A stretch of 64,000 bases of DNA from NCBI RefSeq assembly GCF_019924635.1, contig NZ_CP065037.1, positions 930,001-994,000 on the forward strand, in the 5' to 3' direction. The notes under the pieces were generated by a model. That model searched no databases. It worked only from the letters and a program-made list of their open reading frames with translations, and was not told the DNA's origin. The DNA comes from Leifsonia sp. ZF2019. GTDB lineage: Bacteria > Actinomycetota > Actinomycetes > Actinomycetales > Microbacteriaceae. The position numbers and the translations under genes are program-made. Of this stretch, positions 7,902-36,406 are shown piece by piece. Numbering within the stretch: the stretch's first letter is position 1; the number at the start of each line of letters is the position of its first letter.

Positions 7902-7912
7902 GGGAGCGCGTC

Positions 7913-9627: not shown

Positions 9628-9638
9628 GAGCGCAACCC

Positions 9639-11705
9639 ATGGCCATCACCACCGCCACCGTCGCCGAGGCCGAGTCCGGCGAGACGGACACCCCCACCTC
9701 CCGCTTCGCCTGGATGCGCGCCTTCCGGCGCCCCTGGACCCTCACGGGTGTCGTCATCGTCGCCGTGTTCTGCGTGCTCGCCATCATCGGCCCCTGGATC
9801 GCCCCGTACGACCCGTCGGCCGTCAGCAAGCAGACCCTGCAGCCGCCGAGCCCCGAGCATTGGCTGGGCACGACCCAGACCGGCCAGGACGTCTTCTCGC
9901 AGATGCTCTACGGCACGCAGATCTCGCTGCTCGTCGGCGTCGGCGCCGCGATCGTCGCCACCGTTCTGTCGGTGATCGTCGGCCTGGCCGCCGGGTATCT
10001 GGGCGGGCTGTCCGACGAGCTGCTGTCGCTGCTCGCCAACGTCTTCCTCGTCATCCCGGCGTTGCCGCTGACCGTCATCCTCGCCGCGTATCTGCCGAAG
10101 TCGGGTTCGATCGGGATCATCCTGGTCATCTCGATCACGGGATGGGCGTGGGGCGCGCGCGTGCTGCGCGCGCAGACCCTGTCGCTGCGCAAACGCGACT
10201 TCGTCGAGGCCGCCCGAGCGACCGGCGAGCGCACGTCGAGCATCATCTTCCGCGACATCTTCCCGAACCAGATCGCGGTGATCGCCGCCAGCTTCCTCGG
10301 CACGGTCACCGGCGCGATCCTGACCCAGGCCAGCCTGGCCTTCCTCGGGCTGACGAACGTGACCGAGTGGTCCTGGGGCACGATCCTGTACTGGGCGCAG
10401 GTGTCGAGCGCGATGCTGACCGGGTCGTGGTGGTGGTTCGTGCCGGCCGGCCTCGCGATCGCGTTGCTGGGCACCGGGCTGTCGCTGGTCAACTTCGGCA
10501 TCGACGAGTTCATCAACCCCCGGCTGCGCCAGGCGGGAATCGGAACGAAGAAGGCCCAGAAGGCGCAGGCGCGGGCACAGCGCGCGAAGACCGTCCGACG
10601 CCCGGCGCGCGTGCGCGGAGAGCGCCCGCCGCACCGGCCGTTCGACCCGGCGACCAGCGACGTGATCCTCCGGGTCGAGAACCTGCACGTGGACTATGTG
10701 GGGGAGTCGTCGGTGACGCCCGCGGTCAACGACGTCACACTGACGCTGCGCCGCGGCGAGGTGCTCGGCGTCGCCGGCGAGTCCGGCTCGGGCAAGTCGA
10801 CCCTGGCCTACGCCATCACCCGTCTGCACAAGCCGCCGGCGCAGATCACGAGCGGCCGGATGCTCTACACGAACCCGGACGGTTCGGTCACGGACATCCT
10901 CGCGATGAGCGACAACGACCTGCGGGACTTCCGTTGGGAGGAGCTGTCGATCGTCTTCCAGTCGGCGATGCACGCCCTGAACCCGGTGCTCACCGTGGGC
11001 GCCCAGATCGACGACGTGCTCCGCGCCCACCGGCCCGGGATGTCGCCGGCCGAGCGCGCGGCGCGGGTCGTGGAGCTGCTCGGGCTGGTCGGCATCCAGA
11101 CGGATCGCGTGAACGCGTACCCGCACGAGCTCTCCGGCGGCATGCGCCAGCGCGCCATGATCGCCGTCGGCCTCGCGCTCGATCCCGAGATCATCGTGAT
11201 GGACGAGCCCACCACCGCGCTCGACGTCGTGATCCAGCGCCAGATCATCGAGAAGATCATCGAGCTGAAGGACCGCCTCGGTTTCGCGGTCGTGTTCATC
11301 ACGCACGACCTGTCGCTGCTGATCGAGCTCTCGGACACCATCGCCGTCATGTACGCCGGGCGCGTGGTCGAGCTCGCGGACGCCGACGAGTTCTACCGCA
11401 ACCCGCGGCACCCGTACAGCCAGGGCCTGCTCGGGTCGTTTCCGACGCTCTCGGGCCCGAAGCGCGAGCTCGCGGGCATCCCGGGATCGCCGCCCGACCT
11501 GCGCCGGCTGCCCGCGGGATGCGCGTTCGCCGACCGTTGCCCGCTCGCGTTCGACCGCTGCCACGAGGTGGTGCCAGAGCTGCTGACGCTCGCCGGCCCC
11601 GCCGAGTGGCGGCAGACCGAGGCCGCGTGCCTTCTCTACGAGGGCGACGGCAGCGCCCCCGACCGCCCGGCCGACGCCGACACCCTGATGGAGGACGCCC
11701 GATGA
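9639..11705 (+). CDS. Fused ABC permease (DppC-type) and ATP-binding protein (DppD-type)
   Basis: A 688-residue fusion of two normally separate subunits. Residues about 1-300 form the second permease, with an N-terminal cytosolic stretch, about six membrane helices and the coupling motif [21 protein letters not shown] basic linker (about 300-340; [19 protein letters not shown]) leads into an ATPase with Walker [10 protein letters not shown] (about 380-388), signature LSGGMRQR (about 498), Walker B IIVMDEP (about 518) and the C-terminal oligopeptide-type zinc-finger-like tail [16 protein letters not shown]. Such DppC-DppD fusions occur in actinobacteria. The second ATPase follows with a 4-base overlap, so a full importer would have two different ATPase halves, one tethered to its permease. 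Confidence 0.92.
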
Positions 11706-12871
11706 CCACGATCGAGACCGCACCGGCGGCCGCCGACGAGCGGGCGGACGTCCCCGTGCTCGAGGCGCTCCACGTCACCAAGCACTTCCCCGCTCGCGGA
11801 CGGCTCTTCGCACGCGGACCCAAGCGCGTGGTGCACGCGGCGGACGACGTCTCCCTCGCGCTGCACGCCGGCCGGATCATGGCGCTCGTGGGCGAGTCCG
11901 GTTCGGGCAAGTCGACCTTCGCGCGCCTCCTGGCCCAGCTGCACCCGGTGACGAGCGGCGAGATCCGCTACCGCGGCACGCCCGTGCGTGTGAAGGGCGG
12001 CCGCTCACTGCGGGAGCACGTGAGCCACGTGCAGCTGATCCTGCAGGATCCGTTCGGCTCCTTCAACCCCGTCGCGACCATCGCCAGGACGCTGACGCGG
12101 GCCGTCCGCATCCACCATCCGAAAGCGTCGCCGAAGGAGCAGACGGCCCTCATCGACGACCTGCTGGGGCAGGTGAGCCTCCGGCCCGCACGACAGTTCA
12201 CCGAGAAGTATCCGCACGAGCTCTCCGGGGGCCAGCTGCAGCGCATCTCCATCGCGCGGGCGCTCGCGGCGAACCCCGACGTGTTCCTCGCGGACGAGCC
12301 GGTGTCGAGCCTCGACGTCTCCATCCGCCTCGGCGTGCTGAACCTGCTGCGGCGGCTCGTGGAGGAGCGCCGGGTCGCCCTCCTCTATGTGACGCACGAC
12401 ATCGCCTCCGCCCGCTACTTCGCCGAGGACACCAGCGTGATGTACGCCGGGCAGCTGGTGGAGGCCGGGCCCAGCGAGACGGTGACCCAGAAGGCCGCGC
12501 ACCCGTACACCCAGCTGCTCATCGCCTCCGCGCCCGACCCGTCCCGTCCGGACGACGAGCGTCCGCGCGACATCGGGCAGCCGCCGAGCCTCATCGATCC
12601 GCCCGCGGGCTGCCGGTTCCACCCTCGCTGCCCGTTCGCCATGGACCGGTGCCGTACCCAGGCCCCGCCCGCGTTCGCGCTCGAGGACGGCCAGTGGGCG
12701 AAGTGCTGGCTGTACGCCGACGACGCCGAGGCCATGGTCAAGCGCACCGAGAACGCGGCCGCCTACGGCCTGGGCCCCGTGCGCCCGGCCGGCCGCCGCC
12801 TCACCACCGGGCCGCATGCGGCCCCCGCAGACGCTCCACGCACAACCGAAACCAAGGGAGACCAGCAATGA
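11702..12871 (+). CDS. ABC transporter ATP-binding protein, DppF/OppF type
   Basis: A 389-residue cytosolic ATPase, the second nucleotide-binding subunit of the importer. It has Walker [14 protein letters not shown]-loop [12 protein letters not shown], signature [15 protein letters not shown], Walker [13 protein letters not shown] and the H-loop YVTHDI. The C-terminus carries the family tail [16 protein letters not shown]. The last 50 residues ([19 protein letters not shown]) are low complexity and exceed the usual family length. ATG 11702 overlaps the preceding stop; its own stop overlaps the ATG of the binding protein, so all importer genes are translationally coupled. Confidence 0.93.
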
Positions 12872-14526
12872 ATCGCAGAAGGTCCGTGCGCCGCGCCCTC
12901 ATCGGCGCGACGCTCGCCGCCTCGCTCGTCGTACCGCTCGCCGCCTGCTCGTCGAACGGTTCGAGCTCGGGCGACGGACTGATCCTCAACGTGGCGAGTC
13001 AGTCCGACAGCCTCACCCAGTCCTTCAACCCGTACCTGCCGAACACCGCGCAGGGCGCGACCTACACCAACCAGGGCGCAGGCGGCTTCATCTACGAGCC
13101 GCTCGTGCAGATCAACAACGTCGACATCGGCAAGGACATCCCGTGGCTCGCCAAGTCGTGGGAGTGGTCGAACGAGAACAAGACGCTGACCCTGCACCTG
13201 CAGAGCGGCGTGAAGTGGACGGACGGGCAGAAGTTCTCCGCCGACGACGTCGTCTTCACCTACGAGATGCTGAAGAAGTACCCGGCCCTGAACGTGGGCG
13301 GCGTCGACTTCGACACCATCACCGCGCCCGACGCGGACACCGTGGTGATGACCTTCACCGCGCCGTCGGAGACGAAGTTCACCTCGCTCGTCGGGGCCGC
13401 GATCGTCTCGAAGCACATCTGGTCGAAGGTCGGCGATCCGACCACCTACGTGGACAAGGATCCGGTCGGCACCGGACCGTTCGTGCTCGACAGCTTCTCG
13501 CCGCAGAGCTTCGTACTCAAGACGAACAAGGACTACTGGCAGGAGCCGGCCAAGATCGGCGGCATCCGGTTCATCCCCTACAAGGACAACCAGGGCCAGA
13601 CGAACGCGCTCGTGCAGGGACAGGCCGACTGGTCGGGCACGTACATCGCCGACGCCGAGAAGACCTACCTCTCCAAGAGCAAGGACAACCACTACTGGGC
13701 CCCGGTCGTGGGCTCGGACGGTCTCATCCCGAACCTGGAGAAGTGGCCGCTCAGCGACATCGCCGTGCGCCGCGCGATCAGCCTCGGCGTCGACCGTGCC
13801 CAGATCGGCGCCGCGACCGACTCGCCGCCGGCGACCAGCCAGACGGGTCTCCCGATGCCGGCCTTCGCGAGCGAGGTCGCACCCAAGTACAAAGACCTCG
13901 TCTTCAAGCAGGACAAGCCGGCCGCCGAGAAGCAGCTGACCGACGCCGGCTACACGAAGGGCTCCGACGGCTACTACGAGAAGGACGGCAAGAAGGTCGA
14001 GTTCTCGGTCAGCTTCCCCGCCTCGTACACCGACATCGCGGCCCGCGCCCAGGTGCTGGTCTCGCAGCTGAAGGACATCGGGATCAAGCTCGACATCGAC
14101 ACCACCTCGGTGAACGACATCAACAAGATCACCGCAGACGGCACATTCCAGTCCACGATCGGCTACCCGGTGGGTCCGGCGCCGCGCGCGTTCAACATCT
14201 ACGACTCGATGATGAACCCGAACAAGTACTACCCCCTGGGGCAGGCGACGCCGACCTTCGAGAACATCGAGCGCTTCAACGATCCGACCGCCAAGGCACT
14301 GTTCGCGCAGTACCCGCTGGCGACCACGGACGAGGAGCGCGCCGCGATCCTCGAGAAGCTCCAGGGCATCTGGATCGACCAGCTGCCGATGATCGTGATG
14401 TTCTACTGGGGCAACTACGGCGACTGGAGCAGCGCGAAGGTCACCGGCTGGCCGAGCGAGGACAACCCCTACTTCGCGCCCTACCCCAACCCGGTGGTGG
14501 CACTGAAGCTGAAGCCGGTCTCCTGA
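12868..14526 (+). CDS. ABC transporter substrate-binding lipoprotein, family 5
   Basis: A 552-residue extracellular solute-binding protein (SBP_bac_5). It begins with a basic n-region, a hydrophobic core LIGATLAASLVVPLA and the lipobox LAAC at about residue 27, so it is lipid-anchored outside the membrane. Family landmarks are GGFIYEPLVQ, the core VKWTDGQKFSADDVVFTYEM and DPVGTGPFVLDSFSP. Family 5 proteins bind peptides, nickel, opines or oligosaccharides such as cellobiose and xyloglucan fragments; the saccharide-processing context makes an oligosaccharide ligand likely, but that is inference. A GC-rich hairpin follows the stop and separates it from the second ThuA gene. Confidence 0.93.
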   Translation: MNRRRSVRRALIGATLAASLVVPLAACSSNGSSSGDGLILNVASQSDSLTQSFNPYLPNTAQGATYTNQGAGGFIYEPLVQINNVDIGKDIPWLAKSWEWSNENKTLTLHLQSGVKWTDGQKFSADDVVFTYEMLKKYPALNVGGVDFDTITAPDADTVVMTFTAPSETKFTSLVGAAIVSKHIWSKVGDPTTYVDKDPVGTGPFVLDSFSPQSFVLKTNKDYWQEPAKIGGIRFIPYKDNQGQTNALVQGQADWSGTYIADAEKTYLSKSKDNHYWAPVVGSDGLIPNLEKWPLSDIAVRRAISLGVDRAQIGAATDSPPATSQTGLPMPAFASEVAPKYKDLVFKQDKPAAEKQLTDAGYTKGSDGYYEKDGKKVEFSVSFPASYTDIAARAQVLVSQLKDIGIKLDIDTTSVNDINKITADGTFQSTIGYPVGPAPRAFNIYDSMMNPNKYYPLGQATPTFENIERFNDPTAKALFAQYPLATTDEERAAILEKLQGIWIDQLPMIVMFYWGNYGDWSSAKVTGWPSEDNPYFAPYPNPVVALKLKPVS

Positions 14527-17047: not shown

Positions 17048-17053
17048 ATGAGG
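17040..17053 (+). promoter_or_regulatory. Candidate operator D before the GntR gene
   Basis: TGGTATGAATGAGG matches 10 of 14 bases of TGGTATTGATTTGG. It lies 30 bases before the chosen GTG of the GntR gene and could serve autoregulation. It is the weakest of the four sites. Confidence 0.3.
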
Positions 17054-17083
17054 CACGCGATCGGCAAGGGGAGGGTATCGACT

Positions 17084-17857
17084 GTGACGCAGCCGGAGAC
17101 GCTCGGGGGTAACGCGGTCGCCGCGATCAGGCCGGACTACCCCGAGCCACTGTGGATCCAGGTGATCACCCTGATCAACAACGAGATCGCTTCGGGCGTG
17201 CTCAAACCGGGGATGCGCCTCCCCCCGGAGCGGGAGCTCTGCCAGCAACTGTCGATCTCCCGGGTGACGCTGCGCAAGGCGCTGAGCCAGCTTGTCGAGG
17301 ACGGCGTGCTGAGCGCCTCCCACGGCCGCGGCTGGTACGTCGCCCAGGCGCCCGCCGTCGGCAAGGACTTCCCGAACAGCCTGGAGTCGTTCACCGAGAC
17401 CGCCGCCCGGATGGGGCTCGCCCCGTCCTCGCGCGTGCTCCGCGCCGAGGCGAAGCCCGCCACCCTCGACGAGGCCGAGGAGCTGGGCGTCGCCCCGGGC
17501 ACCCCCCTGTTCCACCTGGAGCGGGTGCGTCTGCTCGACGACGTGCCGATCGCGGTCGACGTGACGAGGATGCCCGCCGCGCTCGCCCCCTCGCTCGAAT
17601 CGGTCGACTTCTCGACGGCGTCGTTCTACGAGGCGCTCGCCGAGGCCGGGGTGGAGCCCCTGCGGGCGGACGCGACGATCGAGGCGCGCGAGAGCACGGC
17701 CTCCATCGGGGAGCACCTCGGGCTGGAGGTCGGCAAGCCCGTGCTGGTGATGCGCCAGGTCGCCGTCGACGACAGCGAGCATCCCCTGTTCGTCTCGACG
17801 ATCACGTACGCGGGCGAGCGCTACCGCCTGCGCACCAACTTCGCGCGCGCCCGCTAG
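17084..17857 (+). CDS. GntR-family (HutC subfamily) transcriptional regulator
   Basis: A 257-residue regulator. Residues about 20-90 form the GntR winged helix (RLPPERELCQQLSISRVTLR, then LVEDGVLSASHGRGWYV), and the rest is a UTRA effector-binding domain ending YAGERYRLRTNFA. I prefer GTG 17084 over the upstream ATG 17048 because AAGGGGAGG (17066-17074) lies 9 bases before it, and because the resulting MTQPE start matches the MTQTPE start of its paralogue at 20886. The two proteins are similar along their whole length (shared PEPLW, NSLESF and HGRGWYV), so they arose by duplication and may recognise the same TGGTATTGWTTTGG operators. The effector is probably a phosphorylated or keto sugar. 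Confidence 0.93.
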   Translation: MTQPETLGGNAVAAIRPDYPEPLWIQVITLINNEIASGVLKPGMRLPPERELCQQLSISRVTLRKALSQLVEDGVLSASHGRGWYVAQAPAVGKDFPNSLESFTETAARMGLAPSSRVLRAEAKPATLDEAEELGVAPGTPLFHLERVRLLDDVPIAVDVTRMPAALAPSLESVDFSTASFYEALAEAGVEPLRADATIEARESTASIGEHLGLEVGKPVLVMRQVAVDDSEHPLFVSTITYAGERYRLRTNFARAR

Positions 17858-19649: not shown

Positions 19650-19789
19650 CGACGCGCGTGGTTGCACTGCGGTTCTCCTCGGTGTTCGGGGACCTCGGTG
19701 TTCGGGGGACGGATCGAGCGGGAGCATACATAGAGGTACTTGGAGGTAGCAAGAGGTATTTTGCCTCTGCAAGTATTCCGCGATTGATA

Positions 19790-19819
19790 TAGACCAAATG
19801 CGTACCACATGGCTACTAT
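19790..19819 (+). promoter_or_regulatory. Promoter and candidate operator C of the 19849 operon
   Basis: TAGACC (19790-19795) and TACTAT (19814-19819) with an 18-base spacer form a reasonable promoter, with a start near 19826. The spacer contains CCAAATGCGTACCA (19794-19807), whose reverse complement matches TGGTATTGATTTGG at 11 of 14 bases and whose GTGGTACGCAT also occurs at 3668-3678. Repeated GGTA words upstream (19728-19780) may be extra half-sites. Confidence 0.5.
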
Positions 19820-19848: not shown

Positions 19849-20889
19849 GTGATTCGAGTCGGTCTTCTCGGTTCCGGTTTCATCGCCGACACCTACGCGG
19901 ACGCCCTGCAAGACGTCCGCGGAGCCGAGATCGTCGCCGCCTACTCCCGCGATCTCGGCCGCGCCGAAGCCTTCGCGGAGAAGTGGGGCCCCATCGCCCG
20001 GCAGTACGACGACATGGCAGCGCTCTGCGCCGACCCGGAGATCGACCTCGTCGTGATCGCGCTCCCGAACGAGGCGCACGTGGAGGCGGTGCGGATCGCC
20101 GCCGAGGCAGGCAAGGGCATCGTGTGCACCAAGCCGCTCGCCCGCACGGGAGCCGAAGCCGCCGAGATCGTCCGCATCGTGCGAGAGACCGGCGTCTGGC
20201 ACGGCTACGCGGAGAGCTCCGTCTTCTCTCCCAACATCGCGAAGGCGCACCAGATGGTCACCGCCGGCGCTATCGGCGAGCCGCTGACCATGCGGGCCCG
20301 GGAGGCACACTCCGGCCCGCACGCCGCGCACTTCTGGGACGCCGAGACGGCGGGAGGCGGCGCCCTGCTCGACATGGGCTGCCACACCGTCGAGTCGGCC
20401 CGCCACTTCTTCGGCAAGGACAACCAGGTCACCGAGGTCTTCGCCTGGGGCGCGACCATGGTCCACTCCGACAAGACCGCAGGTGAGGACACCGCCATCG
20501 CACTCCTGAAGTTCGCCGGCGGCCAGCTGGCGCAGATCGAGTCCTCGTGGATCGAGAAGGGCGGCATGCAACTGCGCCACGAACTGGTCGGAACGGCCGG
20601 GCGCCTGGTCACCGACACCTCCCACACCCCGGTGTGGGGCTTCATCGAGAACCCGGCCGGCTACCTCGTCGAGAAGGCCGACGCCGAGACCGGTTGGGTG
20701 TACCCGGTTCCGGAGGAGGCCCGCGCCTACGGCTTCAGCCAGGAGATGCGCCACTTCGTCGAGCGCTTCGCCGCCGGCGCGACTCCGGACGAGACCTTCG
20801 ACGATGGTTTCGTCGTCAACTGCATCCTCGACGCCTGTTACACCTCGATGCGCACCGGCGTCTGGGAGACGGTGAGCCTCGAGCGATGA
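19849..20889 (+). CDS. Gfo/Idh/MocA-family oxidoreductase
   Basis: A 346-residue NAD(P)-dependent oxidoreductase, first gene of the long coupled operon. It opens VIRVGLLGSGFIADTYADAL (Rossmann GxGxxA), has TKPLARTGAEAAEI with the family Lys-Pro, and the substrate-domain helix GGGALLDMGCHTVESARHFF with the conserved Asp and His. GTG 19849 is preceded by AGGAGG (19839-19844). The family acts on sugars, inositols or their keto forms. The stop overlaps the next ATG by 4 bases, so the regulator that follows is made with it. Confidence 0.92.
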   Translation: MIRVGLLGSGFIADTYADALQDVRGAEIVAAYSRDLGRAEAFAEKWGPIARQYDDMAALCADPEIDLVVIALPNEAHVEAVRIAAEAGKGIVCTKPLARTGAEAAEIVRIVRETGVWHGYAESSVFSPNIAKAHQMVTAGAIGEPLTMRAREAHSGPHAAHFWDAETAGGGALLDMGCHTVESARHFFGKDNQVTEVFAWGATMVHSDKTAGEDTAIALLKFAGGQLAQIESSWIEKGGMQLRHELVGTAGRLVTDTSHTPVWGFIENPAGYLVEKADAETGWVYPVPEEARAYGFSQEMRHFVERFAAGATPDETFDDGFVVNCILDACYTSMRTGVWETVSLER

Positions 20890-21686
20890 CGCAGACACCA
20901 GAGGCGGCGGCGCCCGGACTGGCCCTCGGCCAGCCGGGCGTCCGCACGGATCATCCCGAGCCCCTGTGGGTGCAGGCGGCCGACTCCGTGCGCGAGCGGA
21001 TCGCGAGCGGTGAGCTGCGCTCCGGCAGCCGGCTCCCTCCCGAGCGCGAGCTCTGCCGGCTGCTCGGCATCAGCCGCGTGACCCTCCGTAAGGCTCTCCA
21101 GGCGCTGGTCGAAGACGGCGCGCTCGCCTCCTCGCACGGGCGCGGCTGGTATGTCTCGGGCGGCGCGGACACGCGCAACGAGTGGCCGAACAGCCTCGAG
21201 TCGTTCAGCGAGACGGCCGAGCGGATGGGGCTGGAGGCCACCTCGCGCGTGCTCCAGGCGCGCATCGCGCCCTCGACCATCGACGACGCCGAGCTGCTCG
21301 GCATCGCACCCGGCCTTCCGCTGTTCCGGCTCGGCCGGGTGCGGATGCTCGGCGGCGTGCCGATCGCCCTCGACTGGGCGCTCATCCCGGCCGCGCTGCT
21401 CCCGGACGCCGACGCGCACGACTTCGCGACCGCCTCCCTCTACGAGGCGCTGACCGCGGCGGGCAACGAGCTCGCCAACGCCGAGACCACCATCGAGGCT
21501 CGGGAGGCCGGGCCCGACATCGCCGCGCAGCTCGGCGTCGAGGCGGGCACTCCCACGCTCGTCATGCACCAGGTGGTGCGCAACCGCTCGGAGCGCGCCG
21601 TGCTCGCCTCCACCGTGCAGTACGCGGGAGACCGCTACCGTCTGCGCACCTACTTCGCCCGCCACAACCGAACGGAGACACCGTGA
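20886..21686 (+). CDS. GntR-family (HutC subfamily) transcriptional regulator
   Basis: A 266-residue paralogue of the 17084 regulator. The winged helix is RLPPERELCRLLGISRVTLR, followed by HGRGWYVSGG, and the UTRA domain ends YAGDRYRLRTYFARH. It is embedded as second gene of a catabolic operon, coupled on both sides by 4-base overlaps, which predicts that the operon controls the level of its own regulator. With its paralogue it is the best candidate to bind the TGGTATTGWTTTGG sites. The effector may be the operon's substrate or a phosphorylated intermediate. Confidence 0.93.
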   Translation: MTQTPEAAAPGLALGQPGVRTDHPEPLWVQAADSVRERIASGELRSGSRLPPERELCRLLGISRVTLRKALQALVEDGALASSHGRGWYVSGGADTRNEWPNSLESFSETAERMGLEATSRVLQARIAPSTIDDAELLGIAPGLPLFRLGRVRMLGGVPIALDWALIPAALLPDADAHDFATASLYEALTAAGNELANAETTIEAREAGPDIAAQLGVEAGTPTLVMHQVVRNRSERAVLASTVQYAGDRYRLRTYFARHNRTETP

Positions 21687-23707
21687 CCGCCACCGCCACG
21701 CCCGCGACGACGACCGTCGCCGCCGCCCTCGCCTCCCTCCGCCCGGAGGAGGTGGACGCCGCGCGGGCGATCCTCCAGCGCGAGGGTCTGCTCGGGCCCG
21801 ACACGCACGTGTCGTACTTCGGTCTGCTGGAGCAGGACAAGCGGACGCTGCTCGCTCCGGGCACCGCGCCCGCGCCGCGCCGCTTCCGCGCCATGCTCGT
21901 CGACCTGGCCTCCGGCGCCTCCCACGACGCCGTCGTCTGCCCGGCGGAGGACCGCCTGGTCTCGGCCGTCGAGCTCGACCCCGCCGACGGGCAGGTGCCC
22001 GTCGTGCTCGCCGAGTTCGGCCTGGTCGAGGAGATCGTGCACCAGGACGAGCGCTGGCTCGCCGCGATGGCCAAGCGCGGCCTCACCGACCTCTCGACGC
22101 TGCGGGTCAACCCCCTCTCGGCGGGCGTGCTCGCACCGGAGGAGGCCGGGCGCCGCATCCAGCGCTGCTTCACCTTCGTGCAGAAGACCCCGGACGACCT
22201 CGGCTGGGCGCACCCCGTGGACGGCGTCACCGTGATGGTCGACGTCGTCACGCGGGAGGTGCTCGACGTGATCGACTACGTCGAGTTCCCGGTGCCGGAG
22301 GAGGACGGCAACTTCCACCTCCCGGAGTGGGTCGGCACGCCGCCGCGCGCGGGGCTGAAGCCGATCGAGATCACCCAGCCGGAGGGGCCGAGCTTCACCG
22401 TCGACGAGGACGGCGTGCTGTCCTGGGCGGGCTGGGAGCTCCAGGTGTCGTTCGACCAGCGCGAAGGACTCGTCTTCCACAACGTCTCGATCGACGACGA
22501 TGGCGTGCAGCGCCCGGTGCTCTACCGCGCCTCCATCGCCGAGATGATGGTGCCGTACGGCGATCCGAGCCCGCAGCGCTGGTTCCAGAACTTCTTCGAC
22601 TGCGGCGAGTACCTGCTCGGCGGCTTCGCCAACTCGCTGGAGCTGGGTTGCGACTGCGTCGGCGACATCACCTACCTGGATGCCACGCTGGCCGACAACG
22701 CGGGGAACGTGCGCGTGATCCCGCAGGCCATCTGCATCCACGAGGAGGACACCGGGATCCTCTGGAAGCACTTCGACAACTGGAACGGTTCGAGCGACTC
22801 CCGCCGCAACCGGCGCCTCGTGGTCAGCTTCTTCGTCACCGTCGGCAACTACGACTACGGCTTGTACTTCTCCCTCGACGGCGCGATCGAGCTGGAGGTC
22901 AAGGCGACGGGCGTCGTCTTCACCTCGGCGTACCCCGGGCCGGGCTACGCGTACGCCTCCGAGCTCGCGCCGGGCCTCGGTGCTCCGTACCACCAGCACC
23001 TGTTCTCCGCCCGCCTCGACATGATGGTCGACGGACTCGGCAACAGCGTCGATGAGCTGGAGGCGGCCCTCGTGCCGCGGGGCCCGGCGAACCCCACGGG
23101 CACCGGGATCACTCAGACCGTCGTCCGCCTTCGCACCGAGAAGGAGGCGCAGCGGATGGCCGACAACGCGCGCGGCCGCGTCTGGCTGGTGTCGAACCCG
23201 CACGTCCAGAACCGCCTCGGCCGCGACGTGGGCTACGTGCTCTATCCGGAGGGACAGCCGGCGCTGCTGGCGGATGAGGAGTCCGACATCCACGCCCGCG
23301 CGACCTACTCGGCCAAGCACCTGTGGGTGACGCCGTACGAGCCCGCCGAACTCTATCCGGCCGGTGACTTCGTGAACATGCACCCGGGAGGCGCGGGTCT
23401 GCCCGCGTGGACGGCTGCGGACCGCCCGGTCGAGGACGCCGACATCGTGCTCTGGCACACCTTCGGCCTCACGCACTTCCCCCGTATCGAGGACTGGCCG
23501 ATCATGCCCGTCGACACGGCCGGCTTCGTGCTGAAGCCGCACGGGTTCTTCGGCGCGAACCCGACGATGGACATCCCGGAATCGGTGGGCGACCACTGCG
23601 CGCCCGGTCACCACGAGCACGGCGGCCACCACGATCATGCCGCGCACGAGGCCCTCGGCGCGCACGAGGCGCCGGTCGGCCACGAGAGCGAAGGGCACGG
23701 AGCATGA
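21683..23707 (+). CDS. Copper/topaquinone primary-amine oxidase with His-rich C-terminal tail
   Basis: A 674-residue copper amine oxidase, which converts R-CH2-NH2 plus O2 and water to aldehyde, ammonia and H2O2. The cofactor precursor tyrosine lies in TVGNYDYG (Tyr390, motif T-x-x-N-Y-D/E). The catalytic base Asp is in FDCGEY (Asp306). Copper ligands are HQH (His437, His439) plus a His in GLTHFPRIEDWPIMP. The length fits bacterial enzymes such as that of Arthrobacter globiformis. No signal peptide is seen. The C-terminus after HGFFGANPTMDIP is an extra 40-residue tail with over a dozen His (HHEHGGHHDH and similar), perhaps for metal capture. It is coupled to sugar genes on both sides, an unusual context. 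Confidence 0.96.
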   Translation: MTATATPATTTVAAALASLRPEEVDAARAILQREGLLGPDTHVSYFGLLEQDKRTLLAPGTAPAPRRFRAMLVDLASGASHDAVVCPAEDRLVSAVELDPADGQVPVVLAEFGLVEEIVHQDERWLAAMAKRGLTDLSTLRVNPLSAGVLAPEEAGRRIQRCFTFVQKTPDDLGWAHPVDGVTVMVDVVTREVLDVIDYVEFPVPEEDGNFHLPEWVGTPPRAGLKPIEITQPEGPSFTVDEDGVLSWAGWELQVSFDQREGLVFHNVSIDDDGVQRPVLYRASIAEMMVPYGDPSPQRWFQNFFDCGEYLLGGFANSLELGCDCVGDITYLDATLADNAGNVRVIPQAICIHEEDTGILWKHFDNWNGSSDSRRNRRLVVSFFVTVGNYDYGLYFSLDGAIELEVKATGVVFTSAYPGPGYAYASELAPGLGAPYHQHLFSARLDMMVDGLGNSVDELEAALVPRGPANPTGTGITQTVVRLRTEKEAQRMADNARGRVWLVSNPHVQNRLGRDVGYVLYPEGQPALLADEESDIHARATYSAKHLWVTPYEPAELYPAGDFVNMHPGGAGLPAWTAADRPVEDADIVLWHTFGLTHFPRIEDWPIMPVDTAGFVLKPHGFFGANPTMDIPESVGDHCAPGHHEHGGHHDHAAHEALGAHEAPVGHESEGHGA

Positions 23708-24408
23708 GCCTCGGCATCCAGCTGTACAGCGTCCGCGACGACATCGGGCCGGAGGCGCTCCCCGGCACCCTGGCGAGACTCGCCGGCTACGGCTTCACCC
23801 ACGCGGAGCCCTACGACATCCTGAGCGACACCGAGGGGCTGAACGCCGCCCTCGACGCGGCCGGTCTCCAGACGGACACTGCGCACGCCAAGATTACGGA
23901 GCTCGACCGCGACCGGGTGCTCGACGCCGCCGAGCGGCTCGGGATCGGGACGGTCATCGTGCCCTTTGTGGCGCCCGCGAGCATCGCGGAGCGCGACGGC
24001 GTGCTCGCCCTGGCCGACGCGATCAACGCCATCGTGCCGGTCGCCGCAGATCGGGGGATCCGCCTCGGCTATCACAACCACGACTTCGAGTTCGCGCAGC
24101 GCATCGGCGAGCGGACGGCCTACGACGTGCTCGTCGACGCCCTCGACCCGGCCGTCGTGCTGGAGCTCGACACGTACTGGGCCGCCGTCGGGGGTGAGGA
24201 TGTGCTGGCCCTTCTGCCGAAGCTCGGCGATCGCGTGCGCTACCTGCACGTGAAGGAGGAGGGCACGAACCCGTTCGACGTCGCCGAGGCGGTCGGGCTC
24301 GCGGGCTCGTTGGAGCTGCCGGTGGTGGAGGTGGTCGTGCACGAGGGCGACGTCTTCCCGTTGATCGAGCGGAACGCCGCCTTCTTCCGCGGGCTGGTGC
24401 GCGCATGA
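23704..24408 (+). CDS. Sugar phosphate isomerase/epimerase-like TIM-barrel protein
   Basis: A 234-residue TIM-barrel protein of the xylose-isomerase-like family. It opens LGIQLYSVRDDIG, a frequent family start, and shows the metal-site strands GYHNHDFEF, ELDTYWAAVGGEDV, YLHVKEEG and VVEVVVHEGD. Its homologues isomerise or epimerise sugars or process 3-keto-glycosides. It is coupled by 4-base overlaps to the amine oxidase upstream and the Gfo/Idh enzyme downstream. It differs clearly from the 15273 and 35464 proteins. Confidence 0.86.
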   Translation: MSLGIQLYSVRDDIGPEALPGTLARLAGYGFTHAEPYDILSDTEGLNAALDAAGLQTDTAHAKITELDRDRVLDAAERLGIGTVIVPFVAPASIAERDGVLALADAINAIVPVAADRGIRLGYHNHDFEFAQRIGERTAYDVLVDALDPAVVLELDTYWAAVGGEDVLALLPKLGDRVRYLHVKEEGTNPFDVAEAVGLAGSLELPVVEVVVHEGDVFPLIERNAAFFRGLVRA

Positions 24409-25583
24409 GCGGCGCCGTCGTCCCGACCGGCGTCGGGATCGTCGGGGCGGGCAACATCTCCGATGAGTACCTGCGCTCCCTGGCGACGTACCCGGACGTG
24501 CGCGTCGTCGCCATCGCCGACCTGGACCCGGATCGGGCGCGAGCGCAGGCCGAGCGTTTCGGCGTGCCGGTCGCGACGACGGTCGACCCGCTCCTCGCCC
24601 GCGAGGACGTGGAGATCGTGGTCAACCTGACGATCCCCGCCGCGCACGCCGAGGTGGCCCTCGCGGCCATCGCGGCCGGCAAGCATGTGTGGGGCGAGAA
24701 GCCGCTCACGCTCGATCTGGCGAGCGCCCGCGAGGTGCTCGATGCGGCCCGTGCCGCCGGGGTGGTGGTCGCGAACGCGCCCGACACCATCCTGGGCGAG
24801 GGCATCCAGAACGCGCACCGGCTGCTCGCGGATGGCGCCGTCGGCGCGCCGCGCACGCTGCTCACACTGATGCAGGGCCCGGGACCGGACTCCTGGCACC
24901 CTCGGCCGCAGTTCCTGTTCGCGCGCGGGGCCGGGCCGCTGTTCGACATCGGCCCGTACTACGTGAGCACCATGATCCAGCTGCTCGGCCCGATCGCCTC
25001 GGTCCAGGCCGTCGGACAGCGACCGCGCGCCGAACGCGTCGTCGGCTCCGGGCCGGACGCGGGAGCGCGGTTCCCGGTCGAGGTGGATACGCACCTCAGC
25101 GTGCTGACGCGTTTCGCCTCCGGCGTGGTCGGGACCTCCGTCTACAGCTTCGACTCGCCGCGCCGCCGTCAGGCCTTCGAGATCACCGGCGCCGACGGCG
25201 TGCTGGAGGTCCCGGTCAGCGGCTTCGACGGCCCGACCCGCGTGCTCGCCGGCGACGACCGGGAGACCGACTGGGTCGAGGTCGCGCCTCCCGGCGTGCA
25301 CCGCGAACGGGGCGTCGGAGTGCTCGAGCTCGCCCGCGCTCTGCGTGCGGGACGGCCGCCTCGCGCGTCGGGGGAGCTGGCATTCCACGCCCTGGAGGTC
25401 ATGCTCGCCATCGAACGGTCGGCGGCCACCGGCGCCGCCGTCGCGATCGGGAGCACCGCCCCCACCGTCGAGCCACTGCCGGCCGACTGGGATCCGACGG
25501 CATCGACGGCATCGACGGCCGGCGGGTCCGCACCATCCACGCCGGAGGGCGACCTCCCGGCATCAGCAAGGGGAGTCCGATGA
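24405..25583 (+). CDS. Gfo/Idh/MocA-family oxidoreductase
   Basis: A 392-residue oxidoreductase, second of its family in this operon. The Rossmann start is GVGIVGAGNISDEYLRSLA, the family motif is GEKPLTLDLASAREVL, and the substrate-domain motif is GPLFDIGPYYVSTMIQL. It is closest in feel to the 51421 protein (both have VGNIS/AGNIS, APDT-LG-GIQ and GPLFD-GPYY). The C-terminal 40 residues (TASTASTAGG-type) are low complexity. Substrate unknown; oxidation or reduction of a sugar ring carbon is the family role. Confidence 0.91.
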   Translation: MSGAVVPTGVGIVGAGNISDEYLRSLATYPDVRVVAIADLDPDRARAQAERFGVPVATTVDPLLAREDVEIVVNLTIPAAHAEVALAAIAAGKHVWGEKPLTLDLASAREVLDAARAAGVVVANAPDTILGEGIQNAHRLLADGAVGAPRTLLTLMQGPGPDSWHPRPQFLFARGAGPLFDIGPYYVSTMIQLLGPIASVQAVGQRPRAERVVGSGPDAGARFPVEVDTHLSVLTRFASGVVGTSVYSFDSPRRRQAFEITGADGVLEVPVSGFDGPTRVLAGDDRETDWVEVAPPGVHRERGVGVLELARALRAGRPPRASGELAFHALEVMLAIERSAATGAAVAIGSTAPTVEPLPADWDPTASTASTAGGSAPSTPEGDLPASARGVR

Positions 25584-26599
25584 ACGGGTACATCACTTTC
25601 GCGTCCGCCCGCGCGACGCAGGCCGAGGAGCTGGGGCGCGCGATCCCGCTGATCGCCGACCAGGTGGGCGCACGCGCCGGGCTCGGGCAGCTCACCGGCC
25701 CCGGCCCGATCTTCGTGGGCATCGGTGCCAGCCTCGCCGCGGCCTGCGCCCCGGTGTGGGCGCTGCGCTCGCGCGGCATCCACTCGTGGCGGCTGGGCGC
25801 GGGGGACTACCCGCTGCCGTTCCCCGAGAGCGTGCACCCGATCGTCGGGATCTCGCAGAGCGGGCGCAGCGCCGAGACGCTCGCCGTGCTCGAATCGGTG
25901 CCGGAGGAGCTGCGGTTCGCGGTCGTGAACAGCGAGCCGTCGCCGATCGGTCGCATCGCCTCCACCCTCACCCTGGGCAACCTGGCCGACAGCTACGCCT
26001 CGACCCTCGGTTACACGGCCACGGTCGCCGCACTCGGCATGCTCGCCGACAGCTGGCAGGGCGGCGCCCCCGACCCCGGCTGGTCCACCCTCGCCGCCCG
26101 GTTCGCGGAGGCGGAGGACCGCCTCGCCGCGCCGGTCACGGCCCTGGCCGAGCTGTTCGCGACCGTCTCGTCGAGCGACTTCGTCGGTGCCGGCCCCGCG
26201 GTCGGCTCCGCGGAGGCGGGAGCCCTGCTCTTCCGTGAAGTGGCGCGCATCCCCGCCACCGGCATGAGCACCCGCCAGTACTTGCACGGCTCGATGGAGT
26301 CGGCGGGCGACGGCGTGCACGTGGTCTTCGGCGACAGCCGCGAGCTCGACCTCGCCACGACGCTCGCCGATGCCGGCCATCACGTCGTCCTGATCACGGG
26401 CGAGGAGATCACCGGCTCGCGCACGCTCCACCCGGTGCGGCTGCCCAAGCTGCCCGCCCCGCAGCGCGCCATCCTCGAAGCGCTCGTGATGCAGCTCCTC
26501 GTCGGCGCCGTCGCGGACGTGCGCGGCGTGGACATCGAGGAGTTCGTGTTCCACAACGCGGACACGAAGGTCCCCGTGGACGCGGGGGGCGCGGCATGA
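25580..26599 (+). CDS. SIS-domain sugar isomerase/deaminase-like protein
   Basis: A 339-residue protein with two SIS (sugar isomerase) domains. The first carries IFVGIGASLAAACAPVWALR and the phosphosugar-binding GISQSGRSAETLAVLE; the second carries FVGAGPAVGSAEAGALLFRE and STRQYLHGSMESAGDG. This is the layout of the isomerase half of glucosamine-6-phosphate synthase and of AgaS-type amino-sugar deaminase/isomerases. No glutaminase domain is present, which favours a catabolic deaminase/isomerase. In this operon, with a sugar-kinase-like gene just downstream, an amino-sugar phosphate is a credible substrate. That is inference. It is coupled at both ends. Confidence 0.87.
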   Translation: MNGYITFASARATQAEELGRAIPLIADQVGARAGLGQLTGPGPIFVGIGASLAAACAPVWALRSRGIHSWRLGAGDYPLPFPESVHPIVGISQSGRSAETLAVLESVPEELRFAVVNSEPSPIGRIASTLTLGNLADSYASTLGYTATVAALGMLADSWQGGAPDPGWSTLAARFAEAEDRLAAPVTALAELFATVSSSDFVGAGPAVGSAEAGALLFREVARIPATGMSTRQYLHGSMESAGDGVHVVFGDSRELDLATTLADAGHHVVLITGEEITGSRTLHPVRLPKLPAPQRAILEALVMQLLVGAVADVRGVDIEEFVFHNADTKVPVDAGGAA

Positions 26600-26670
26600 C
26601 GGGGGCGGAATTGATCGTGGGCTTGCATGCCCCTGTTGGTCGCTGCCACCCAGCGGGAGGCGCGTCATGA
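26596..26670 (+). CDS. Micro-ORF 1 (24 codons), tandem copy of the kinase 5' end
   Basis: ATG 26596 overlaps the SIS stop (ATGA) and the ORF ends at TGA 26668-26670, itself overlapping the next ATG. The peptide starts MTGAELIVGL, identical to the first ten residues of the kinase at 26735, then diverges to HAPVGRCHPAGGAS. The GCGGGAGG encoding Ala-Gly-Gly near its end is the ribosome site for the next ORF. Whether the peptide has a function or simply passes ribosomes on is unknown. Confidence 0.5.
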   Translation: MTGAELIVGLHAPVGRCHPAGGAS

Positions 26671-26738
26671 GAGGCACTTTGATCGTGGGCTTGGATGCCC
26701 CTGTGCGGCGCTGCCACCAAGCGGGAGGCCTGTCGTGA
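26667..26738 (+). CDS. Micro-ORF 2 (23 codons), second tandem copy
   Basis: ATG 26667 overlaps the stop of micro-ORF 1 and the ORF ends at TGA 26736-26738, overlapping the kinase GTG. The peptide is MRGTLIVGLDAPVRRCHQAG plus GLS. It shares LIVGL, AP-V-RCH and AGG with micro-ORF 1 although the DNA has diverged. Length differences of the repeat are 3 bases, so the reading frame relation between copies is preserved. Confidence 0.5.
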   Translation: MRGTLIVGLDAPVRRCHQAGGLS

Positions 26739-27631
26739 CGGGGGCGGAATTGATCGTGGGCTTGGATGCCGGAGGCACCAAGCTCGGCGTGCGCGCGGAG
26801 GCCCTTGACGGCTCGCGCGTCGTCGACGTCGCCCTGCCGGCGGAGGAATGGAGCGCTTCGCCGGCGGGCGATGCCGCTCGGTGGTTGCACGCGCGCATCC
26901 GGCGCGTGCTCCCCGAGGGCTCGACCGTCGCCGCTCTCGGGGTCGGCGCCCAGGGGCTCGATACCGAGGAGCACGCCCGCGAGCTGCAGGAGGAGCTCGG
27001 CGGGCTCGGCTACCGGGCCGCCGTGGTGAACGACGCCCAGCTGCTCGTCCCGGCCGCCGGGTTGCAGTCCGGCATCGGTGTGATCGCGGGCACGGGCTCC
27101 ATCGCGGTCGGCTCCGACGCGTCCGGTCGCACCCTCTTCGCCGGGGGATGGGGCTGGGTGCTCGGCGACGAGGGCGGGGCGCCCGCCATCGTGCGCGAAG
27201 CCACCGTCGCCGCCCTGCGCGCGGACGACGAAGGCGCCCCGGACGACGGACTGCTCTCCGCGCTCGTGCGCGCCTTCGGGGTCGACGCGGCTCCGGCGCT
27301 GGCGCGCGCCGTGAACGACGATCCGACGCCCGAGAACTGGGGGCCGCGCGCGGTCGCCGTGTTCGCCGCGGCGGATGCGGGCTCGGTGCTGGCGGTCGGC
27401 GTGATCGAGAGCGCCGGGCAGAACCTTGCCGCTCTGGTGGACCGCCTCGTCGCGCGCGGCGCTGCGGGGTCCGACGTCGTCGTGGCCGGGAGCGTCTTCG
27501 TGCACCAGCCGCGGCTCCTCGCCGCTTTCACGCGAGCCCTCGACGCGACCCGGCCGGGACTCGCCGTCGTGCCGTTGACGGACGCCCCGGTCGCCGGAGC
27601 CGTCGAGCTGGCGCGCCGCCTGGTCGCCTGA
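26735..27631 (+). CDS. BadF/BcrA/N-acetylglucosamine-kinase-type ATPase (sugar kinase)
   Basis: A 298-residue actin-fold (ASKHA) kinase. The first phosphate loop is LIVGLDAGGTKLGVRAE, the second is GVIAGTGSIAVGSDASG, followed by GGWGWVLGDEGGAPAIVREA, the standard layout of N-acetylglucosamine/glucosamine kinases of the BcrAD_BadFG group. It would phosphorylate a free (amino) sugar in the cytosol and so feed the SIS protein. GTG 26735 overlaps the stop of micro-ORF 2. The start is the third copy of a tandem cassette, which leaves no doubt about its position. Confidence 0.9.
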   Translation: MTGAELIVGLDAGGTKLGVRAEALDGSRVVDVALPAEEWSASPAGDAARWLHARIRRVLPEGSTVAALGVGAQGLDTEEHARELQEELGGLGYRAAVVNDAQLLVPAAGLQSGIGVIAGTGSIAVGSDASGRTLFAGGWGWVLGDEGGAPAIVREATVAALRADDEGAPDDGLLSALVRAFGVDAAPALARAVNDDPTPENWGPRAVAVFAAADAGSVLAVGVIESAGQNLAALVDRLVARGAAGSDVVVAGSVFVHQPRLLAAFTRALDATRPGLAVVPLTDAPVAGAVELARRLVA

Positions 27632-27704
27632 GCTCCCTCCGGCGGCCGAGTGCCGCCTCCCCAACCGTCCCGAACCCAGCCACGTAGAACAAAGGAGTCA
27701 GCAC

Positions 27705-29081
27705 ATGGCCATCGCCACCGTCAATCCCGCCACCGGCGAGACCCTCACGACCTTCGAGCCGCACACGCCCGAGCAGCTGGAGGGGATCCTCGCCGCTGCG
27801 GAGGCCGCCTACCGGCAACTCGCCGCGACCACGTTCGAGGAGCGCGCCGCGTGGATGCACGCCGCCGCGGACCTCCTGGATGCCGAGCTCGACGAGGTCG
27901 CCGCCCTCGTGACCACCGAGATGGGCAAGACCATCGGAACCGCGAAGTACGAGGTCGCCAAGTCGGCCCGCGGCATGCGGTGGTACGCCGACCACGCCGC
28001 CATGTACCTGGCCGACGAGCACCCCGTCGCCGCGGGGGATGTCGGGGCGTCCGCCGTGAGCGTGCGTTACCAGCCGATCGGCACCGTGCTCGCGGTGATG
28101 CCGTGGAACTACCCCTTCTGGCAGGTCGTCCGGTTCGCCGCGCCCGCACTCATGGCCGGCAACACCGGCATCCTGAAGCACGCGTCGAGCGTGCCGCAGA
28201 GCGCCCTCTACCTGGGCTCGCTGTTCGAGCGCGCCGGATTCCCGGCGGGTGCGTTCCAGACGGTGCTGGTCGAGGGCGGTGCGGTCGCTCCGTTGATCGA
28301 CGACCGCCGCATCCGCGCCGTGACCCTGACCGGTTCCGTGGGCGCGGGGTCCGCAGTGGCGGAGGCGGCCGGGCGCAACATCAAGAAGTCGGTGCTCGAG
28401 CTCGGCGGCACGGACGTCTTCGTCGTCATGCCGTCCGCCGATATCGCGGCCGCCGCGACGGCGGGAGTGAACGCGCGCGTCCAGAACTCCGGGCAGAGCT
28501 GCATCGCGGCCAAGCGCTACTACGTGCACGCCGACGTCTACGACGCTTTCGAGGAGGCCTTCGTCGCCGGGATGCGCGCCCAGGTGACGGGAGACCCGTT
28601 CGACGAGGCGACCTCTTTCGGTCCGCTCGCGACCGAGCAGGTGCGCCGCGACACGCACGAACTGGTGGCCGACGCCATCGCCAAGGGCGCGACCGTGCTG
28701 ACGGGTGGCGAGCTGCCGGACGGCCCCGGCTGGTTCTACCCGGCGACGGTGCTGCGCGACGTGACCCCCGAGATGCGCATCTTCCGCGAAGAGTGCTTCG
28801 GGCCGGTCGCCTGCCTGTACGCGGTCTCCTCTGCCGAGGAGGCGATCGAGCGCTCCAACGACTCCGAGTTCGGCCTCAGCTCGAGCGTCTGGACGAACGA
28901 CGACGCCGAGGCCGACGCCTTCCAGAACGGCATCGACGCGGGCGGCGTCTTCGTCAACGGGCTGACGGCCTCGTTCCCGCAGCTGCCGTTCGGCGGAGTG
29001 AAGGACTCCGGCTACGGCCGCGAGCTGTCCGCGCTGGGCATTCGCGAGTTCACCAACGTGAAGACGGTCTGGCGGGCGTGA
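27705..29081 (+). CDS. NAD(P)-dependent aldehyde dehydrogenase (succinate-semialdehyde type)
   Basis: A 458-residue aldehyde dehydrogenase. The nucleophile is Cys266 in NSGQSCIAAKR and the general base is Glu232 in VLELGGTDVF; PWNYPFWQ and TGSVGAG are the cofactor-site motifs. The length and N-terminus (AIATVNPATGETLTTFEPHT) fit GabD-like enzymes. It lies 73 bases after the kinase with its own AAAGGAG ribosome site. In the same cluster an amine oxidase makes an aldehyde, so this enzyme is well placed to oxidise that product to an acid. That pairing is inference from context. Confidence 0.94.
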   Translation: MAIATVNPATGETLTTFEPHTPEQLEGILAAAEAAYRQLAATTFEERAAWMHAAADLLDAELDEVAALVTTEMGKTIGTAKYEVAKSARGMRWYADHAAMYLADEHPVAAGDVGASAVSVRYQPIGTVLAVMPWNYPFWQVVRFAAPALMAGNTGILKHASSVPQSALYLGSLFERAGFPAGAFQTVLVEGGAVAPLIDDRRIRAVTLTGSVGAGSAVAEAAGRNIKKSVLELGGTDVFVVMPSADIAAAATAGVNARVQNSGQSCIAAKRYYVHADVYDAFEEAFVAGMRAQVTGDPFDEATSFGPLATEQVRRDTHELVADAIAKGATVLTGGELPDGPGWFYPATVLRDVTPEMRIFREECFGPVACLYAVSSAEEAIERSNDSEFGLSSSVWTNDDAEADAFQNGIDAGGVFVNGLTASFPQLPFGGVKDSGYGRELSALGIREFTNVKTVWRA

Positions 29082-29596
29082 CCGCGGCAGCGGGACGGGA
29101 GGGCGGAGCGCGTGCCCCGCACCTCCCGCTCGGCAGGCGTCTGCTCATCGGACGGCACGGTCTGCTCATCGCGCTGGCGCACGAGCTGCCTCCTGCGGCG
29201 GCGATGGTGTGGGCGTGCGCCGCGGGAAGCGCGGCCGCTCTGTGCGGCGCAGCAATCGCGCTCGCCGTTCTGTCCTGCGTGTACGCCCGGGCGGCGCGGA
29301 CGTCGGCGTGGGCGCGCGAGCACGTCGTCGATCTGTGGGCCATGCTGCTCGCGATGGTGGGAGCAGCCTTCGCCGCGACGACATCCGTGCCTGCGCCCGG
29401 CTCCGGGGCTTCCGTCACCCACCACCATCTCGGCGGGAGCCTCGCCACGGAAGCACTCGCCGGTGCGCTCATCGCGGGCGCCGTGTGCGGCTGGCTCGTC
29501 GCGCGCATCCTGCTCGCCCGGCGGGTGGTGCGCCCGCACACGCTCGTCTCGGCGGTCGCCTGCGGTGGGATGCTCGCCGTCATGGCCGTGATGTGA
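29078..29596 (+). CDS. Small integral membrane protein, unknown function
   Basis: A 172-residue protein whose GTG overlaps the aldehyde dehydrogenase stop (GTGA). It has four hydrophobic segments: AAAMVWACAAGSAAALCGAA, the following IALAVLSCVYA, LWAMLLAMVGAAFAATTS and two near the C-terminus (ALAGALIAGAVCGWLVA, LVSAVACGGMLAVMAVM). A THHHLGG motif lies between the two halves. I do not recognise the family. Coupling to the aldehyde dehydrogenase suggests it belongs to the operon, but no role can be stated. Confidence 0.7.
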   Translation: MTAAAGREGGARAPHLPLGRRLLIGRHGLLIALAHELPPAAAMVWACAAGSAAALCGAAIALAVLSCVYARAARTSAWAREHVVDLWAMLLAMVGAAFAATTSVPAPGSGASVTHHHLGGSLATEALAGALIAGAVCGWLVARILLARRVVRPHTLVSAVACGGMLAVMAVM

Positions 29597-36357: not shown

Positions 36358-36393
36358 TCGTTCGGGCGGCTGTCCTCCCGCGGCAGCCTGTGA

Positions 36394-36399: not shown

Positions 36400-36406
36400 G
36401 GGCGAC

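Follow-up and report, generated by a model that had tools for sequence, protein, structure and literature searches.

In a 64,000-nucleotide stretch of the Leifsonia sp. ZF2019 genome (contig NZ_CP065037.1, positions 930,001 to 994,000; hereafter the window), a copper amine oxidase (CuAO) and an aldehyde dehydrogenase (ALDH) are encoded at positions 19849 to 29596, together with two Gfo/Idh dehydrogenases (Gfo1 and Gfo2), a GntR regulator, a TIM-barrel protein, an SIS sugar-phosphate protein, a BadF-type kinase and a small membrane protein. This cluster is real and conserved, and it is probably one metabolic unit. Our tentative reading is that these genes form the centre of a catabolic pathway with two arms, which would break down a compound containing a polar primary amine as well as a glucosamine-type sugar; we give this explanation slightly less than an even chance. 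A sequence-only reading of the same DNA had proposed that the amine and sugar genes serve a joint pathway, and the proposal is partly borne out by an amine oxidase kept at the cluster in 38 of 39 assessable loci and by Sinorhizobium, in which the same sugar genes adjoin a non-orthologous oxidase.

Pfam and NCBIfam agree with the families named in the sequence-only reading (Gfo/Idh, GntR, amine oxidase, TIM barrel, Gfo/Idh, SIS, kinase and aldehyde dehydrogenase; Table 1), and the eight 4-nt overlaps that it had listed (20886, 21683, 23704, 24405, 25580, 26596, 26667 and 26735) are all present in the coordinates of the open reading frames (ORFs). Both arms, amine and sugar, are interleaved within one overlapped gene array in the window. 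The claim of an overlap at every junction holds there; in relatives overlaps recur, but not at all junctions. Overlapping same-strand neighbours are common for SIS-kinase (28/37), Gfo1-GntR (22/25), CuAO-TIM (15/16), TIM-Gfo2 (15/19) and Gfo2-SIS (16/18), and rarer for GntR-CuAO (5/26), CuAO-SIS (4/20) and Gfo1-CuAO (1/7). Because they recur in relatives, the overlaps are not due to chance. Between the kinase stop and the ALDH start lie 73 nt, the membrane protein gene then overlaps the ALDH stop by 4 nt, which bears out the coupling claimed for it, and the next gene encodes a LacI regulator.

Conservation was assessed by scanning a genome collection with the SIS protein, which yielded 39 loci (40 with the window) from Leifsonia, Streptomyces, Actinacidiphila, Asanoa, Kutzneria, Agromyces, Microbacterium, Herbiconiux and other genera. 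Many of these loci come from related species, and two (L020 and L022) from one genome. Some genes are split or truncated because they were called by an in-house codon-usage ORF caller, and the family counts were supplemented and rechecked. A CuAO gene lies at the cluster in 38 of the 39 assessable loci, the window included: 36 were called by family, one is read in two frames (L042), and one (L035) is split into two pieces and lies some 1.2 kb outside the stretch first examined, at a distance of about 11 kb from SIS. L020, which begins at a contig end, was left out of this count, and L034 has no CuAO anywhere in its genome. An oxidase kept elsewhere by the relatives together with an order unique to one strain, which the sequence-only reading had named as fatal to its proposal, is thus not what we found. 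Gfo1 is present in 35 of the 39 assessable loci (missing in L029, L030, L034 and L042), and a kinase relative in all 40, the L017 copy being diverged and non-adjacent and that of L028 being a start truncated at the contig end and assigned by eye. In 20 of the 40 loci there is an ALDH of the close family, and in L010, L032 and L033 the kinase gene is followed by one for an ALDH of a different family. A minimal operon of Gfo1, CuAO, SIS and kinase is found in five loci (L025, L026, L028, L040 and L041).

A survey of 299 Microbacteriaceae genomes that did not start from the SIS protein found the CuAO subfamily (at least 69% identity; next best 58%) in 10 genomes, the SIS type (at least 56%; next best 38%) in 10, and both in 8. 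The hypergeometric P of 1.4e-12 for this co-occurrence assumes independent genomes and is not a true probability, because the genomes are related. At an E limit of 1e-200, the subfamily was found solely in the window's own genome among the 297 genomes of an order sample, and in two of the 394 genomes of a class sample, namely the window's and one (L117) with the full core; in these surveys no more than a few candidates were scored in each genome. Pairwise protein distances correlate between CuAO and SIS (r=0.84, n=36 loci), between CuAO and kinase (0.62) and between SIS and kinase (0.58).

That the pairing is functional is best supported by megaplasmid p1 of Sinorhizobium sp. B11 (L122), where a different oxidase adjoins the same sugar genes. 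A CUT1-type transporter is accompanied by Gfo1, GntR, SIS and kinase genes (72.7, 55.7, 53.3 and 55.4% identical to those of the window), which are followed convergently by genes for an ALDH (43.3%), a DUF2182 protein, a primary-amine oxidase and a polyamine-type ABC transporter. This oxidase is 39.7% identical to the window CuAO and 41.5% to AGAO, the phenylethylamine oxidase of Arthrobacter, and therefore does not belong to the same subfamily. B11 is one record, and its separate amine transporter is also compatible with two nutrients. Distant SIS-kinase pairs on plasmid records of Klebsiella (L123) and Mesorhizobium (L124) have no annotated amine oxidase, and Gfo1 relatives (40-45% identity) on Chloroflexota and Bacteroidota plasmids stand in other contexts, with no amine oxidase annotated within 7 kb. 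Near its SIS-BadF kinase pair, the Klebsiella plasmid also carries an Amadori-like set (SIS, PfkB kinase and amino-acid ABC transporter; 14717-18864 of L123).

The cluster could instead hold two independent modules. A free amine would be handled by CuAO, ALDH, the membrane partner and, in some genomes, an amine permease, and an amino sugar or its glycosides by the ABC transporter, kinase, SIS and GH9; the two sets would be kept together and co-regulated because both nutrients come from the same debris, with no single conjugate involved. We consider this possible, if doubtful. Each module does occur alone. Two genomes of one genus (L109 and L110) carry the CuAO-ALDH pair without sugar genes, with the small membrane gene and an APC-type permease nearby, which supports the earlier view of amine oxidase and ALDH as a unit of their own, and two of another (L111 and L112) carry SIS-kinase with GH9 and CUT1-type genes. 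Amine transporters lie beside the oxidase in Sinorhizobium, an APC permease does so in L021 and L024, and six loci have an ethanolamine-type permease in the vicinity of the island, though those six probably reflect one ancestral neighbourhood. Separate modules do not, however, readily account for a CuAO gene placed mid-operon among overlapped genes in the window, for the sugar-type transporter that is the only one in most loci with both SIS and CuAO, or for Gfo1, which accompanies both arms in 35 of 39 loci. As a separate observation, the SIS-kinase pair of L111 and L112 adjoins genes for a RidA-like protein, a D-aminoacylase-like amidohydrolase, a hydroxyaspartate-aldolase-like enzyme and an ABC transporter, without an amine oxidase, and these neighbours are possibly another nitrogen partner for the sugar arm.

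The window CuAO reaches the AGAO-type family score (809 bits against NF008559/PRK11504, cut-off 651) and scores 721 bits against the solved 1rjo. The cofactor Tyr382, the base Asp298 and the copper-binding His 431/433/592 (AGAO numbering) are kept in all 44 subfamily sequences (39 of them distinct, mainly since some genomes are represented twice) and in all 23 others compared. In the substrate channel, position 296 is Phe in 44/44 subfamily sequences and Tyr in 23/23 others, and position 293 is Phe in 44/44 against Trp in 23/23, so that the phenethylamine-type channel (Y296, W293) is absent. Position 135 is Asn in 42/44 against Val or Ala, position 358 is Asn in 39/44 and mostly Leu or Met in the others (17/23), and position 292, W in the subfamily, likewise differs from the AGAO type. 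These residues speak against substrates of the phenethylamine type and in favour of an amine of greater polarity. No signal peptide was seen by eye in the window CuAO, which is apparently cytosolic. Two residues that follow closely on the cofactor tyrosine in 66 of the 67 compared sequences are missing from it, which may be a sequencing error or a partial loss. Cyclic imines, described as CuAO substrates for HarA (PMC6345859), were considered with iminosugars in mind, and this locus gave no evidence for them.

Ethanolamine as the amine is a lead only. The six loci with an ethanolamine-type permease are L014, L023, L027, L029, L031 and L110; the permease is accompanied by a GlnA-like gene in five of them, L027 being cut, and that of L029 scores 357 bits, below the curated cut-off of 382. 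In L110 a set of permease, GS-like, amidotransferase, ALDH and SDR genes adjoins CuAO, and parts of it are found in five SIS loci; the shared neighbours may all go back to one ancestor.

For the sugar arm, the sequence-only reading had taken SIS plus BadF-type kinase as typical of amino-sugar phosphates, which the fold comparison favours but does not prove. The modelled SIS fold is nearest to GlmS and glucosamine-6-phosphate deaminases (Z mostly 32-37). E220, H236, S92, S94 and G95 are invariant in 37/37 sequences, the phosphate motif is SQSG, and the two-SIS fold of the GlmS/deaminase type is present; E220 and H236 presumably correspond to E488 and H504 of GlmS. The protein scores only 31.3 bits against NagB-II (NF046059, curated cut-off 430), and the kinase 41.6 bits against NagK (NF046058, cut-off 370); the kinase belongs to the BadF family (PF01869, 52.6 bits, cut-off 31.5). 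An Amadori-type route would employ kinase, SIS, CuAO and ALDH in one line, the kinase phosphorylating a fructosyl-amine, an SIS deglycase freeing the primary amine, and CuAO and ALDH consuming it. Many of the 120 SIS relatives listed carry the JGI name 'fructoselysine-6-P-deglycase FrlB-like', and the third best solved relative of SIS by sequence is 3knz (28.6 bits), which is possibly part of a Salmonella glucoselysine system. The modelled fold is nonetheless somewhat less close to FrlB/FraB than to the GlmS types, and we regard this route as improbable.

It is more improbable still that CuAO acts on the sugar itself, turning a 6-aminomethyl, aminoglycoside-like sugar into a 6-aldehyde that Gfo1 would reduce before phosphorylation and the SIS step. 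Such a route would give a role to each member of the minimal operon, and the best solved relatives of Gfo1, 6jw6 (127 bits) and 6nor (100 bits), are presumably KanD2 and GenD2 of kanamycin and gentamicin biosynthesis, an assignment of PDB codes that our literature search did not confirm. The likeness to KanD2 is not specific, because the IolG model scores higher (146 bits, itself below cut-off), which counts against the route, and ALDH and the stand-alone CuAO-ALDH pairs of L109 and L110 would be left unexplained.

The two micro-ORFs that had been counted as operon members between SIS and kinase are tandem copies of the SIS-stop/kinase-start region and not genes. The array (26582-26770) has a period of 68 and 2.7 copies, each spanning the SIS-stop/kinase-start junction, and the micro-ORF peptides are copies of the kinase N terminus, which rules out regulatory peptides. 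Units in the window are 71 and 68 nt long, and the related locus L004, in which the tandem copies lie at 11010-11111, has one additional copy of 92 nt, with none in L005. All three lengths are 2 modulo 3, and therefore each copy recreates the 4-nt overlap. The micro-ORFs arose as a side effect of a tandem duplication that left translational coupling intact.

The small membrane protein is linked to CuAOs beyond this cluster. Its profile matches 19 of 21 loci of other AGAO-type Microbacteriaceae oxidases (L089-L106 and L108, out of L088-L108) and 24 of 39 cluster loci, and the protein is encoded beside both other oxidases of this genome (L113, 7385-7918; L114, 10511-10969). The profile was built from 25 sequences within the loci scanned, L113 and L114 included, so that 25 of the 50 matched loci lie outside the training set, one of them (L094) being the same genome place as training locus L115. 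The protein is absent from all nine loci without an oxidase (L034, L073-L078, L111 and L112) and from the Streptomyces, Actinacidiphila, Asanoa and similar cluster loci; nor does the profile match in nine short cluster-type loci with flanks of about 1.5 kb (L079-L087) or in four oxidase loci outside Microbacteriaceae (L118-L121). Of the 25 membrane proteins encoded next to CuAO, 8 match DUF5134 (PF17197) at E <= 1 (best 4.2e-05), that of the window not being among them, and we found no paper on DUF5134 in the literature searched. The AF2 model predicts a divergent protein of five helices (pLDDT 82.9) bearing His and Met, with no PDB match at E <= 0.001. Its association with CuAO and its His/Met content suggest a role in copper supply. 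In Sinorhizobium B11, the position of the DUF5134-like protein is taken by the DUF2182 membrane protein, whose gene lies between those for ALDH and the non-orthologous oxidase.

A candidate operator, TGATATAGACCA, has its single match in the window upstream of Gfo1. This TGGTATAGACCA-like site stands about 65 nt before Gfo1. L004, L005, L006 and L008 have it at the corresponding position, whereas L007 does not, and it resembles sites of HutC-type regulators such as DasR. One such site in the window compares with 0.38 expected, and 29 of 100 shuffles reach one.

Table 1. Features of the cluster and its upstream neighbourhood (positions within the window)
Feature	Position	Strand	Basis or remark
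GH9 exo-glycosidase relative	3695..5455	+	Pfam GH9
Gfo/Idh oxidoreductase heading the upstream transport genes	6819..7901	+	Pfam
ThuA-like protein	7865..8656	+	Pfam PF06283
Opp-type ABC transporter	8659..12871	+	Pfam
Opp-type permease	8659-9627	+	
Opp-type permease-ATPase	9639-11705	+	
Opp-type ATPase	11702-12871	+	
SBP_bac_5 substrate-binding protein	12886..14526	+	solved relatives incl. 1zty
ThuA-like protein	14638-15276	+	Pfam
TIM barrel	15273-16040	+	Pfam
NAD-dependent epimerase family	16037-17047	+	Pfam
Second GntR-UTRA regulator (paralogue)	17048..17857	+	Pfam
Short-chain dehydrogenase-like, convergent pair, first	17962-18681	+	
Short-chain dehydrogenase-like, convergent pair, second	18686-19390	-	recognised by eye
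Candidate operator	19785..19796	+	
Gfo1, Gfo/Idh dehydrogenase of the core set	19849..20889	+	Pfam; best NCBIfam IolG, below cut-off
GntR-UTRA (HutC-type) regulator	20886..21686	+	Pfam/NCBIfam
CuAO, separate AGAO-like subfamily	21683..23707	+	Pfam/NCBIfam, residue alignment
TIM barrel (AP_endonuc_2), isomerase/epimerase family	23704..24408	+	Pfam
Gfo2, second Gfo/Idh dehydrogenase	24405..25583	+	Pfam/NCBIfam
SIS sugar-phosphate isomerase/deaminase	25580..26599	+	Pfam; AF2 pLDDT 92.3, GlmS/deaminase-like fold
Tandem partial copies of kinase start region, holding both micro-ORFs	26582..26770	+	
BadF/NagK-like sugar kinase	26735..27631	+	Pfam/NCBIfam
Aldehyde dehydrogenase AldH	27705..29081	+	NF042989 895 bits, cut-off 800
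Small DUF5134-like membrane protein, CuAO-associated	29078..29596	+	AF2 model

The gene system probably extends upstream of 19849-29596 to the transporter at 8659, and perhaps still further to the GH9 gene at 3695. The upstream Opp, ThuA, TIM-barrel and epimerase genes probably belong to it, because genes of the same families directly precede the core in Streptomyces and Actinacidiphila loci. In the window the short-chain dehydrogenase-like pair, neither member of which falls in any family common to at least four of the 40 loci, separates them from Gfo1, and the nearest Leifsonia loci (L004-L008) have instead a divergent Opp-type set with a binding protein of another family. The transporter varies among loci, being CUT1-type in 18 and Opp-type in others; the CUT1 binding protein of L039 has mixed sugar binders as its best relatives. 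The relative closest to the window binding protein is 1zty, which binds chitin oligosaccharides in Vibrio, with 192 bits against 135 for the next kind. The GH9 protein has 5dgq, 6gdt and 3h7l as best solved relatives (389-377 bits over about 530 residues) and most resembles exo-acting Vibrio and Photobacterium enzymes of this family (VC0615 and PBPRA0520 types). According to the report on VC0615 and PBPRA0520, their glucosaminidase activity is better than their glucosidase activity, and no structural basis was found for the preference (PMC6096475). The GH9 family recurs near the cluster, in 8 of 40 loci, and its gene in the window possibly sits in a separate operon. Downstream, positions 33144-37576 hold Gfo/Idh, DUF993, TIM-barrel and glycerate-kinase-family genes, the first three of these families occurring in 9, 7 and 6 of the 40 loci, respectively; this may be a separate cluster of 3-keto-glycoside type.

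In the two-arm pathway that we favour, an ABC transporter, Opp-type here and CUT1-type in relatives, would import a disaccharide-sized glycoside, as the binding-protein relatives suggest. Gfo1, in some genomes with Gfo2, TIM barrel and ThuA, would oxidise a ring hydroxyl, and GH9, where present, would hydrolyse a beta-glucosaminyl or glucosyl bond. The BadF kinase would phosphorylate the freed amino sugar, and SIS would deaminate or isomerise the 6-phosphate to a glycolytic ketose phosphate, roles that fit their folds. In the other arm, a topaquinone CuAO would turn the R-CH2-NH2 part into aldehyde, ammonia and hydrogen peroxide, and ALDH the aldehyde into acid, as expected of their enzyme classes. 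The GntR repressor at the TGGTATAGACCA-like site may switch the set on, and the small membrane protein may supply or handle copper for the oxidase. Stated more narrowly, and with distinctly more doubt, the cluster might represent an undescribed degradation of glucosamine-amine conjugates, such as a polar aminoalkyl glucosaminide, through an intracellular topaquinone oxidase with a remodelled channel; it would have been assembled twice with different oxidases, in actinobacteria and in Sinorhizobium, and the DUF5134-like protein of the Microbacteriaceae version would serve CuAOs more widely.

Amino-sugar genes adjoin amine-use genes in soil actinobacteria and at least one rhizobium, and this adjacency points to an undescribed nutrient pathway. 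If so, soil and plant-associated bacteria would share a nutrient so far without a name, a separate topaquinone oxidase subfamily would gain a metabolic role, and the idea could be tested genetically on the scale of one operon. Through the membrane protein linked to CuAO, the copper loading of amine oxidases becomes accessible to direct tests.

The enzymes are of known kinds and their combination was not found in the literature: a search of titles and abstract openings gave no paper on an amine oxidase with amino-sugar, aminoglycoside or SIS genes. Amadori (FrlB/FraB) systems have a PfkB-type kinase, whereas that of the cluster is BadF, and from the Shewanella NagK/NagB-II glucosamine pathway the cluster differs in a kinase and an SIS protein far below both curated cut-offs. 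The Vibrio chitobiose operon consists of an Opp-type transporter, GH9 and BadF kinase. The cluster has its nearest Opp-type binding protein and GH9 in Vibrio and Photobacterium, but adds CuAO, ALDH and Gfo/Idh and only occasionally includes GH9. The set adjoining CuAO in L110 is that of the Streptomyces GlnA4 ethanolamine cluster, which uses gamma-glutamylation and for which the main text of the report contains 'amine oxidase' 0 times (PMC6529630); this set is a neighbour and not part of the system. With the AGAO-type CuAOs, finally, the cluster CuAO shares cofactor tyrosine, base aspartate and three copper histidines, but it differs from them in its channel positions and sits in a sugar operon.

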